A stretch of 64,000 bases of DNA from a virus, in the IMG/VR virus record IMGVR_UViG_3300042889_002533, positions 20,921 to 84,920 of that record; one strand, written 5' to 3'. Under the pieces are notes generated by a model. That model was not told the DNA's origin. It did no database searches and saw only the letters and a program-made list of their open reading frames with translations. Position numbers and translations under genes: made by a program. Positions 3,160-54,415 of this stretch are shown here, piece by piece (within the stretch, counting starts at the first letter, position 1; every line of letters begins with the position of its first letter).

Positions 3160-3268
3160 AACGGCAAGTTGTTACCCATATGAAAGAAGCTTGTAGCGCA
3201 AGTAAAAATCGTAAGCCAAACGTTGAAGTGATGTTCAACAAAGGGTGCCCCGGCAGTTTGATGCCGTT
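3160..3268 (+). ncRNA. Closed RNA element
   Basis: Outer stem AACGGCA (3160-3166) with TGCCGTT (3262-3268). Inner hairpins are CTTG/CAAG and GTTGAA/TTCAAC. A competing local hairpin CGGCA/TGCCG uses the same 3' strand. Bases 3104-3159 hold two small hairpins (GTTC/GAAC and GTAAC/GTTAC) and no gene. Confidence 0.4.
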
Positions 3269-44506: not shown

Positions 44507-44890
44507 ATGAATACCAATCGTTCCACTAATTACCTCAAGACAATTGTCAATGACCAATCTGCAACAGCTGAAATCCGAAGGGTGCAGGCATCTGCACGAA
44601 TCTTCAATCTCGAGCAAAAACTGATGCAGGAAAAAAATCCAGCTCACATTCGCCTTGTTCAACGTGTTGACCGTTTTGGTCGACTTGGGAAGAATAATCC
44701 TGCAGCTGTCGGTTACCGCGAGCGTGCAGAGAAGCAGAGGCGCAATTATAACTATGGTGCCAACCCTTATCAGCGCATTGCAATCTCTGATGCTGCAACG
44801 GTTGACATTTACATTCGCACAATTCATCATGAGTCATGCGCACGTCGGCAATTTGTTAATATGACCACAGGTGAACTCTATTACGCTTAA
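44507..44890 (+). CDS. Basic hypothetical protein
   Basis: 127 residues, Arg/Asn-rich, no recognised domain. First gene after the promoter. Confidence 0.77.
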   Translation: MNTNRSTNYLKTIVNDQSATAEIRRVQASARIFNLEQKLMQEKNPAHIRLVQRVDRFGRLGKNNPAAVGYRERAEKQRRNYNYGANPYQRIAISDAATVDIYIRTIHHESCARRQFVNMTTGELYYA

Positions 44891-44897
44891 TCTTTAT

Positions 44898-45149
44898 ATG
44901 AATGAAACACCGCTAATACCAACCGCAGCTTTCGATAGGAGTGCAGCACTCCCAGACTCTAGGTATATTTTTAGCGGCAACTATGTGATATTTACGCGCC
45001 GCCGATTTGTTTTTCACATCACCTTTGGCCGAAGTTATGCTAACATGACTCTGATTGAAGCACGGCGTAAACTTAAAAAATACTATACCAAAGGTGAACA
45101 GAATGACATCCTGCATTATCTCAAAACCAACAACATTTTAAAAGCATGA
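44898..45149 (+). CDS. Small basic protein, paralogue of the 24339 gene
   Basis: 83 residues. The C-terminal 55 residues (FVFHITFGRSYANMTLIEA.. and ARRKLKKYYTKGEQNDIL) match the whole 24339 protein. Confidence 0.78.
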   Translation: MNETPLIPTAAFDRSAALPDSRYIFSGNYVIFTRRRFVFHITFGRSYANMTLIEARRKLKKYYTKGEQNDILHYLKTNNILKA

Positions 45150-45361
45150 CCAATGGGATTCAGGTGGTAGCAAACTACAAAGCGTCCATGATGGGTGGAA
45201 TGGAAATCGTTCAAGTTTATCTTAAAACTGATGAAGGTGAAATTACCTTGAGTAAGAAGCAATGGGATGAAATCAAAACAACTATGGCTGGGCATCGCAA
45301 GAGTGGATATTCAGAAGAGTTTGATGGTTATACTCCACACACAGCAGCTTTTTGGAATTAA
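45146..45361 (+). CDS. Small hypothetical protein
   Basis: 71 residues; overlaps the previous stop by 4 bp. No recognised domain. Confidence 0.72.
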   Translation: MTNGIQVVANYKASMMGGMEIVQVYLKTDEGEITLSKKQWDEIKTTMAGHRKSGYSEEFDGYTPHTAAFWN

Positions 45362-50972: not shown

Positions 50973-52985
50973 TTATATGCTAGCAAATCCCATAGCACTG
51001 CCAGTCATTATAGGGTCATATGAACTGTTGCTGTTGTTTACTGAACTTTGAGTTGTATTGTTTGTATTGCCACCGTAATTATTAACAATCACAGGAGACA
51101 CTGATATGTTGTTGCTGCTATTCATCAGTTCGGCACCGGTAGTATTGCTTATAGGAGATACCGTTGGCATTTTATATTTCCATCCTGATGACCTGTAATC
51201 ATCCCATGACTCATAGCCAGCTTCTTTAGCTTTAAGTGATTTTTGATCTTCCGTTAACGAATCAGCAGCTGGCATGGTACTGCTGCTAGTTGCTTCGCCT
51301 TCCTTTGCTTTTGCTTTAAGACCAGCATATTCGTAGATACTGTCTGGTATTGCTTTTGCAACCCAAGTCATTGGATTGAGTACGCCGGCAGCTGCCGGAT
51401 CTGGCAATACATCTCGCAATACACTTTTTGCAAACCCTTCGGCAAGATTACCAGCACCGCTTACAGCATTGTTAATGGCCTCGCCCATCTTAGCCGTCAA
51501 TTCGGTTATAAGAGTTGGAATATTCATTACCCAATCAATGAGGCCGTCTATTGCTTTGCCAATCGCATCAAATACAAACGCTAAAGCTTTATTGAGGGTA
51601 TCGGTAAAAGAAAAATTATCCAATGCAACTGCAAGATCAAACGCTCCAAACATAGTAGCAATCCATGATACTGCTCCTTTAAGAGTATCCAATATACCAC
51701 CAACAAGAGTTGCCCATATGCCAGCTAGCCCAAAATTTTCAAAGGCTTTAGAGAATTTTTCAAATGAAAAGATTGATTTAAACCAGTCAAATGCGTATAT
51801 GACTGTATCAAAGATTGCATCTACGCCATCCTTAAGAAGCTGTGAGAATGAGAAACTGTCAAGTAATTTTGAAAAATTTTGAAAGCCTAATTTGTTAGCA
51901 ACCCATGATACTATATCCTTTGCGAGGTCTGCTATACCACCAACAAGACCAATTAACAATCCACTGATAGCGCCTTTAACAGCACCTAGTACGCCACCTT
52001 GTTTGTAGCCTTCGATAGCACCCATTACCGTTTCATATAGTGCGGTAATAAAAACTAACGGCTTAGCTAATACTTTCAATACACCAAATAATGCTGGTAA
52101 AATGCGAGCTATTCCTTTACCTATCGATACACCAGTTTTAAAGCCTGTTACAAATGCTCTAAGTATACCACCTAAACTTGTAAAAAATTTCGCAATATTT
52201 GGAAACATTTTAGCTAGGCGGCCGCCTATAGTCAGGCCTTCATCGGCCGCTCCAAACAATGGACGAATCATATCGCCTACAGCGCGCACTGCACCTGTGA
52301 ATTTGCCCCAGGCTTCGGTTATTTTGGTAATTGTATTTGTTACATATTTGGCGATTGCAGATTCTCTTACAAAAGCAACAGCACTTTCTCCAACTAGTTT
52401 TATGGTATTGAAAAAAGAAGTTAGTGCAGCGCGTATAGGGTTGAACGCCTTGGCTATAGCTGTTCCGAGTTTAGAAATGCCTAAACTTATTTTTTGATAT
52501 ATTGCAGTGTCTTTAATTAGAGCGCTAAACATCGCAGCCGTTTCGGTAACAAATCCTACAACAGTACCGCCAATTAAAGCTGCAGCAAAAGCAAGAATGC
52601 CACCTAAACCAGATGGTGCCTCGCCTGCGCGTGGTGACGGGCGTCGTCTCTCAGTGTCAGGCGGTGGCTCGTTGCGTGCACGCAATGCGGCAAGAAGATC
52701 TCGACGATTTTCTTCTTGCTGCATATCATTGCTGGTAAAGAATTCCAACAACTCTTTATTGCTGCGACTGATATCAGATATCAGTCGGCGCATACTAGTG
52801 ACAACCGCTAACAGCTGACCACCATTATCAACGCGTTCGCCTTCGGCTTGTGAGTTGATTAAAAGACCGCGAGTAACCAATTGGTTGGTATTGTCTATCG
52901 CGTCCATAATAACATCGCCTGAGAAGTTTAAACTTTTCAGTTGTGCGATTACTTCGACTAATTGACTACTTTCTGTATTGGCCAT
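50973..52985 (-). CDS. Predicted tail tape measure protein
   Basis: 670 residues. A helical N-terminus (about 1-130), many glycine- and alanine-rich hydrophobic segments (for example GGILAFAAALIGGTVVGFV near 128 and a cluster near 300-350), amphipathic repeats with FSFSQLL/FSFTDTL phrases, and an Asn/Ser-rich tail. Size and position after gp26-like and frameshift ORFs fit a tape measure (T4 gp29 has 590 residues). It would set tail length and pass through the membrane at infection. Confidence 0.8.
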   Translation of the reverse strand: MANTESSQLVEVIAQLKSLNFSGDVIMDAIDNTNQLVTRGLLINSQAEGERVDNGGQLLAVVTSMRRLISDISRSNKELLEFFTSNDMQQEENRRDLLAALRARNEPPPDTERRRPSPRAGEAPSGLGGILAFAAALIGGTVVGFVTETAAMFSALIKDTAIYQKISLGISKLGTAIAKAFNPIRAALTSFFNTIKLVGESAVAFVRESAIAKYVTNTITKITEAWGKFTGAVRAVGDMIRPLFGAADEGLTIGGRLAKMFPNIAKFFTSLGGILRAFVTGFKTGVSIGKGIARILPALFGVLKVLAKPLVFITALYETVMGAIEGYKQGGVLGAVKGAISGLLIGLVGGIADLAKDIVSWVANKLGFQNFSKLLDSFSFSQLLKDGVDAIFDTVIYAFDWFKSIFSFEKFSKAFENFGLAGIWATLVGGILDTLKGAVSWIATMFGAFDLAVALDNFSFTDTLNKALAFVFDAIGKAIDGLIDWVMNIPTLITELTAKMGEAINNAVSGAGNLAEGFAKSVLRDVLPDPAAAGVLNPMTWVAKAIPDSIYEYAGLKAKAKEGEATSSSTMPAADSLTEDQKSLKAKEAGYESWDDYRSSGWKYKMPTVSPISNTTGAELMNSSNNISVSPVIVNNYGGNTNNTTQSSVNNSNSSYDPIMTGSAMGFASI

Positions 52986-52994
52986 TGTGATGGT

Positions 52995-53183
52995 TTAGTT
53001 GCTATTTTTACGTTTTTGTTCTTCTTCTTTAAGGTGTGAAACAAGCAGTGAAATGTATATTTCCCTCTCCCATGGTATCATCATATCCAATTCGCTTAAT
53101 GAGTATTTGTGGTGCTGCATCAATGCAAAGTTAGTTTGGAAATAATTTACTAATGATTCATGTGAGAGGGCTAATCGAAAAAA
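52995..53183 (-). CDS. gp26 frameshift extension (tail assembly chaperone-like)
   Basis: Frame -1 relative to the end of the gp26 homologue, open from the run GCTTTTTTC at 53185-53177 to TAA at 52997-52995. It reads RLALSHESLVNYF, then MQHHKYSLSELDMM IPWEREIYISLL and a charged end, a plausible chaperone tail. An internal ATG at 53120 would give 41 residues alone but has no ribosome site. Slippage on TTTTTTC would fuse it to gp26 just before the tape measure gene, as for lambda G/GT-type proteins. Confidence 0.6.
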   Translation of the reverse strand, partial: FFRLALSHESLVNYFQTNFALMQHHKYSLSELDMMIPWEREIYISLLVSHLKEEEQKRKNSN

Positions 53184-53878
53184 GCTTTAGTGCCTACCAG
53201 TTCCAACGAGTTGTCATGGCCGCAGCCTTTGCATTTGAATTGAACAGTTTGTTTGAGCGCAGGAACTGCTGCAATGAACGCTTCAATTTTTTGCATCTGT
53301 GAGCGGTTAAGACTGTTGATGAAAACGATCAATTCAGCTTTTGATGAATTCTCAGCTGGATATACCTTCTCAGCATCAAAGATACTTTCAATACTTGCAA
53401 TAACAACTTCATTGATAAGATCACCTTGTGTCTTTTTGTCATCAGTCAATCCGCTCATATCTTTAACTCGAATGTAACGCATATTGACGCCAACAGTATC
53501 AGTAATCATAATTGTCTTTGATACCGAGTCATCAAATTTTACTGCTATTTCATCAAGGTTAATTTCAACTGGGTTTGGAGCTTCGCACGAGCTGCACTTG
53601 ACGTTGACGTTGCTAATCTCTCCAACGCTTTTGCTGCGCAACTTAAGGAAAACATATTCAAGGTCAAATGATGTTAATGCATTAACATCAACTTTTTCAA
53701 ATGTGCATGCACGAATAATATCTTTCATTGCGCCTAACATCTCGCGTGAATCTTGTGACTCTTGAGCCATCAGCAAGATCTTTTCTTCTTTTACGAGAAA
53801 TGGGCGATATTCAATAGCCTTCTTTGTGGAAGGAATTTCAACGGTATACTTTGGGGATTCTAGGATTGGTAATGCCAT
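53171..53878 (-). CDS. 26: T4 gp26-like baseplate hub protein
   Basis: 235 residues of the T4 base plate protein family. N-terminal LPILESPKYTVEIPSTKKAIEYRPFLVKEEK, two zinc-ribbon cysteine pairs (CSSCEAP near 94 and CKGCGHD near 218). Expected role in hub assembly. It lies upstream of the frameshift extension and tape measure genes. A late-like TATAAATT lies at 53891-53884 on the minus strand. Confidence 0.85.
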   Translation of the reverse strand: MALPILESPKYTVEIPSTKKAIEYRPFLVKEEKILLMAQESQDSREMLGAMKDIIRACTFEKVDVNALTSFDLEYVFLKLRSKSVGEISNVNVKCSSCEAPNPVEINLDEIAVKFDDSVSKTIMITDTVGVNMRYIRVKDMSGLTDDKKTQGDLINEVVIASIESIFDAEKVYPAENSSKAELIVFINSLNRSQMQKIEAFIAAVPALKQTVQFKCKGCGHDNSLELVGTKAFFD

Positions 53879-53899: not shown

Positions 53900-54415
53900 T
53901 TAAGTTAGTTTTCGTGATGACCACGTGTTGTATGTAAACACTATTGTTAATTTTTGAACGCTATTTTCTGAAGAGTTGTCTAGTTCGATAGAATTAACTC
54001 CAACAGGCCATGCATATGGAAGTGTGACTTCATATATTGGTTTGTCTGTTTCATCCAACTGTTGTATTATAACTGTTGTTGCAAATTTTTTAGTATACTC
54101 AACCAAGTATGATACTGGATTTATTATCTTAACAAGCCATTGGTCAAAAAGGTTTTTAACATAATAGTCATTTGTTAAATAAAACACACAAGTAACATCC
54201 TCATCGCTATAACCAGTTGGTACTTTGTTTTCATTACGCCAAACAGAAAAGTCCGTTGTAAGTATTTGTCTCCCTGGCAGCGTACAGCTTTCGCACAATA
54301 GGTTAAGATCTTTTCCATCATCAATTGGATTGGAAATGATAATATTAAAGCGATTACCACGTGATAAACCGGATCGTTTTATAATGGTACTTTGTAAGTC
54401 TTGTATAGATCCCAT
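53900..54415 (-). CDS. Tail tube protein, gp19 family
   Basis: 171 residues. CESCTLPGRQILTTDFSV, VPTGYSDEDVTCVFYLTNDYY and the end ITLPYAWPVGV-type strand VNSIELDNSSENSVQKLTI resemble the T4 gp19 tube fold (compare T4 LWPTNVGELQLDW). It may be the main tube protein or the tube initiator (gp54-type). Confidence 0.75.
   Translation of the reverse strand: MGSIQDLQSTIIKRSGLSRGNRFNIIISNPIDDGKDLNLLCESCTLPGRQILTTDFSVWRNENKVPTGYSDEDVTCVFYLTNDYYVKNLFDQWLVKIINPVSYLVEYTKKFATTVIIQQLDETDKPIYEVTLPYAWPVGVNSIELDNSSENSVQKLTIVFTYNTWSSRKLT

Follow-up and report, generated by a model that had tools for sequence, protein, structure and literature searches.

A T4-like tail assembly chaperone locus of an uncultured phage with a conserved poly-T site for a predicted −1 frameshift

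The locus described here occupies part of a 64,000-nucleotide stretch of phage DNA (the window), in which a gp26 homologue, an open −1 extension of that gene and a tape-measure-like open reading frame follow one another on the minus strand. The features of the locus are as follows.

53900..54415, minus strand: gp54/gp19-like tail tube or tube-initiator protein, upstream (phrog_3629, E 7e-35; phrog_45, E 7e-30)
53878..53171, minus strand: gp26 homologue, short form of the tail assembly chaperone, 235 residues with two CxxC pairs (PF12322, phrog_150, AlphaFold model)
53186..53198, minus strand: weak Shine-Dalgarno-like GGTAGG region 5' of the slip site (anti-Shine-Dalgarno duplex, −5.5 kcal/mol)
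53183..53177, minus strand: predicted slippery heptamer T TTT TTC (sequence; T6-T8 in the same phase in all relatives examined)
53171..53173, minus strand: 0-frame stop codon TAG of gp26, 10 nt past the first base of the heptamer
52995..53177, minus strand: −1 extension, 60 codons plus TAA, gp51 C-terminal part of the predicted 294-residue long form (phrog_634, identity, pN/pS)
50973..52985, minus strand: putative tape measure protein, 670 residues (weak phrog_5448 match, E 1e-5, and position)

The gp26 homologue ends with GGC ACT AAA GCT TTT TTC GAT TAG, in which T TTT TTC has the X XXY YYZ phasing that two tRNAs need to slip by −1. Beyond it, 60 codons can be read in the −1 frame, from CGA at 53177 to AAC at 52998, before TAA at 52997..52995; both the gene end and the open frame are as the original prediction described them. 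The predicted fusion product is 294 residues long, with a gp26-gp51 junction peptide spanning GTKAFFRLALSH. The extension adjoins the tape-measure-like frame as had been proposed, the gap between its stop codon and the ATG at 52985 being 9 bp rather than 10. Its first ATG, GTG or TTG codons, TTG at 53123 and ATG at 53120, lie about 20 codons in and by inspection no Shine-Dalgarno sequence is seen before them, which agrees with the earlier claim that the extension has no good start of its own. We tested 95 gene ends in the window, and no other combines a T6 heptamer with a −1 extension of at least 30 codons, and in shuffled sequence 61 codons stay open in 0.9% of trials. A TTTAAAA at the end of the open reading frame 44871-45149 (window positions 44871-45361) was considered as a second slip site and rejected as an ordinary gene overlap: the −1 frame after it enters the next open reading frame, whose own ATG overlaps the stop codon.

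The gp26 homologue matches the T4_baseplate family PF12322 (E 2.4e-57) and positions 5-232 of phrog_150 (E 1.3e-63); in the collection searched, no phage record exceeds about 42% identity to it. Its AlphaFold model (pLDDT 88) matches gp26-type proteins; solved-structure and fold searches returned no significant structural relative in the PDB, the HK97 chaperone 2ob9 appearing at rank 15 with a non-significant E-value of 2.1 and a TM-score of 0.36 normalized by target length. The extension matches phrog_634, 'baseplate hub assembly catalyst' (E 9.9e-28), as well as the last 50 positions of phrog_150. Identity reaches 69% with proteins annotated under that same name in cyanophages and in pelagiphage Mosig, among them the gp51 proteins of Synechococcus phage S-T4 and Mosig. 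HIV gp41 helices also surfaced as possible relatives of the extension and were rejected, the sequence matches reflecting chance similarity of helix composition.

We compared the junction across two sets of loci: a first set of 89, made up of 80 IMG/VR relatives, the window and eight phage records, and a second set of 78 IMG/VR loci drawn partly from the same contigs. A T6-T8 run phased for the slip precedes a homologous −1 extension in 89/89 loci of the first set and in 78/78 of the second; the T-run is thus retained at all 167 loci. The original prediction had proposed checking the conservation of slip site and frame in relatives, and both are kept in the 158 IMG/VR relatives examined and in 14 phage genomes in all, belonging to the Kyanoviridae, the Pootjesviridae and the non-T4 Straboviridae or being phages DLP6 and ACP17. 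The six phages examined beyond the first set (DLP6, ACP17, RHph_I46, phiAS5, S-CRM01 and V07) keep both the T-run and the extension. It had also named, as evidence that would speak against a frameshift, relatives that lack the slippery run and whose extension starts on a codon of its own; none of the 167 loci in this lineage (0/167) is of this kind.

The two sets combined comprise 135 distinct junctions, which read TTTTTTC, TTTTTTT or, rarely, TTTTTTG or TTTTTTA. The first set contains 75 distinct junctions. Every one has T as the last base of the codon that precedes the two Phe codons, and every one spells the first Phe as TTT, although TTT accounts for 66% of Phe codons in the gene bodies. 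If junctions were independent, the chance of an invariant T would be 1e-19 and that of an invariant TTT 1e-13, values that are only indicative since the junctions are related. These bases lie ahead of the slip, where the product is not yet read in the −1 frame; their invariance is therefore not accounted for by the coding of the extension.

The extension itself evolves as a protein in the −1 frame. Comparison with the four nearest relatives gave pS values of 0.27-0.48 and pN values of 0.007-0.021, and the resulting pN/pS of 0.02-0.07 indicates strong purifying selection, bearing out the earlier impression that the peptide looks selected; the other two frames hold stop codons. The gene sequence, the homology of both parts, the conservation of slip site and frame and the selection on the extension are all direct observations. 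Together with the comparative evidence, which strongly supports the original call of a probable −1 programmed frameshift, they make it very probable that the locus encodes a T4-like tail assembly chaperone with a −1 frameshift, producing a 235-residue short form and a 294-residue long form.

Most database records, including those of many cyanophages and of rhizobial and Vibrio phages, annotate gp51 as a separate small gene, which would have its own start and be translated by coupling after the gp26 stop codon. A start codon does occur near the beginning of the extension at 60 of the 135 distinct junctions, but the other 75 have no ATG, GTG or TTG in extension codons 3-12, and in the window, where none occurs before codon 20-21, the conserved residues FRLALSHESLVNYFQTNFAL would be lost from such a product. 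A separate gp51 would have no need for an invariant T6 run in slip phase, and in T4 the extension region is fused to a gp26-like N-terminus. We therefore regard a separately started gp51 as very improbable for this locus. In S-WAM1 (L082), S-CAM1 (L083) and Aeromonas phage CC2 (L087), no gene is annotated on the conserved −1 extension.

A frameshift could also arise during transcription, if RNA polymerase slipped on the T run and generated a mixed mRNA population. Runs of 7-8 T in about half of the relatives would suit this mechanism; the window and half of the relatives, however, have six T followed by C, and transcriptional slippage usually needs longer runs. Judged from the aligned junctions, the smallest unit that is conserved throughout is precisely the two-codon heptamer, in the phase expected of a ribosomal slip, and transcriptional slippage accordingly appears to us extremely improbable. 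The homopolymer at the junction might, alternatively, have attracted a sequencing error, or the gene might have decayed so as to mimic a frameshift. The chance of this is negligible, as the reading is already refuted by the conserved arrangement: the same architecture recurs in 135 distinct junctions and in many isolate genomes, and the extension is under purifying selection. Frameshifting by the ribosome is thus the reading that we carry forward.

We also looked for elements that could stimulate ribosomal slippage. Downstream of the slip site, the window holds no stable RNA structure (z +0.5 for 60 nt and −1.0 for 100 nt), and the family mean is modest (z −1.5 versus −0.5 in a control region), so downstream structure was rejected as a general requirement. 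A long AT-rich hairpin, TTCTATAATAAT...ATTATTATAGAA, lies directly downstream of the slip site in S-PM2 (L084, about 3214-3255; z −4.0) and is a candidate frameshift stimulator that is absent from the window. Upstream, the anti-Shine-Dalgarno energy dips just 5' of the slip site across the family (positional z −9.6). In relatives, a GAGGG-like sequence is often seen about 8-14 nt ahead of the run. Likeness to a Shine-Dalgarno sequence exceeds the mean of the synonymous alternatives in 75% of junctions, and Gly and Glu codons are biased toward GGA/GGG and GAG. The GGTAGG of the window is a possible, unproven stimulator of this type. The near neighbor L001, whose gp26 is 89% identical, has no such element, which indicates that an upstream stimulator is not essential in this clade. 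The T-run itself is the only universal element of the slip signal.

The comparison with T4 clarifies the relationship between the two parts of the product. T4 gp26 and gp51 both belong to phrog_150, as short form and long form: gp26 matches positions 14-235 only, and the 249-residue gp51 matches positions 13-280 of 282 (E 2.6e-84), close to the positions 5-281 covered by the predicted fusion. T4 gp51 is hence a full-length gp26 paralogue carrying the same C-terminal extension, so that in T4 an ordinary gene specifies the fusion product. Indeed, the fusion aligns directly with T4 gp51 (E 4e-8), and profile alignments place both the gp26 part and the extension on it. In T4 the two forms are encoded by two genes on opposite strands and the T-run is broken at the end of gp26 (GAG TTC TTT GAG); Aeromonas phage 44RR is arranged like T4. 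With its two separate genes, T4 is the exception.

At the edge of the family, Det7 and related Ackermannviridae (Det7 being L093, 3283-3340; L189-L203) keep the −1 extension, with the same end motif GYSIFEISESMPWHL, after their gp26 homologue. An invariant GATTTTCATTTAATTTTTGAAATTG stands where the T6 run would be, the candidate site reading GATTTTCATTTAATTTTTG. Substitutions upstream of the first ATG leave the −1-frame peptide unchanged, a pattern that suggests a different slip site or start. Vibrio phage K444 likewise keeps the −1 extension, lacks the T6 run and has a stop-start overlap, TAATG. These phages are the only ones that approach the combination of an own start and a missing run, and they are distant from the window phage. 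It is unlikely, though by no means negligible as a possibility, that several independent routes lead to a long chaperone, part of the family making a free gp51 from an internal start in addition to the fusion and the T6-less edge using another slip site or stop-start coupling.

Our model for the window is one of ribosomal frameshifting. Most ribosomes would terminate at the TAG and release the 235-residue gp26 short form; a minority would slip by −1 on U UUU UUC, with both tRNAs re-pairing, and continue into the 294-residue fusion that carries the gp51 C-terminal domain. If the system works as lambda gpG/gpGT do, the long form would be the minor product and the short form the major one, and the two would together coat the tape measure protein encoded by the next gene, and this coating would last until the tube polymerizes around it. 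The chaperone locus lies directly upstream of the tape-measure-like frame, whose assignment is itself weak (phrog_5448, E 1e-5). We infer the slippage itself, its rate and the binding to the tape measure protein. On the comparative sequence evidence, this marine T4-like phage almost certainly makes its long form by a ribosomal slip on six T's.

The frameshift reading of gp26/gp51 resolves a widespread annotation problem. Moreover, the TTTTTTY site is deeply conserved and unusually simple, so that these phages offer a well-suited natural series in which to study bacterial frameshift signals.

T4 gp26 and gp51 have been listed as hub assembly chaperones, gp51 being required for assembly and absent from the final particle (PMC3004832). 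As cited in PMC10885494 and PMC12846349, Vladimirov, Gautam and Davidson (Virology 2022, 566:9-15) identified gp26/gp51 as the chaperones of T4-like phages; the 'baseplate hub' name notwithstanding, it is thus the gp26 family that serves these phages as tail assembly chaperone. The original prediction had seen a chaperone arrangement that uses a T4-type hub protein: the arrangement stands, the separate hub protein does not, and the supposed oddity disappears because gp26/gp51 are the T4-like tail assembly chaperone. PMC12846349 credits Vladimirov et al. 2022 with poly-T slip signals in the chaperone genes of T4-like phages, and PMC10885494 states that in some T4-like phages one short gene and one long fusion gene replace frameshifting. 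The window shares with T4-like gp26/gp51 the PF12322/phrog_150 and phrog_634 families and the short and long forms with a common N-terminal part, and we found no difference in kind from these systems as the citing papers describe them. The locus, in an uncultured phage and unannotated, belongs to a phenomenon already described, the gp26/gp51 chaperone with its poly-T slip, since the slip site is conserved across T4-like phages.

Phage Adele (Vandenendeviridae/Andersonviridae; GTTTTT motif, PMC12846349) has in common with the window a conserved poly-T −1 shift at the end of the short form, in phage families other than that of the window. With lambda gpG/gpGT the likeness is one of gene position and layout, without sequence similarity as its basis. 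Lambda gpG/gpGT and other programmed-frameshift tail assembly chaperones were reportedly treated by Xu, Hendrix and Duda in 2004. The window differs from lambda in its larger N-terminal protein (235 residues), in the two CxxC pairs and in its heptamer, TTTTTTC, the lambda heptamer being GGGAAAG. Both loci lie just upstream of the tape measure gene, have their slip heptamer close to where the short form ends and extend the long form at its C-terminus.
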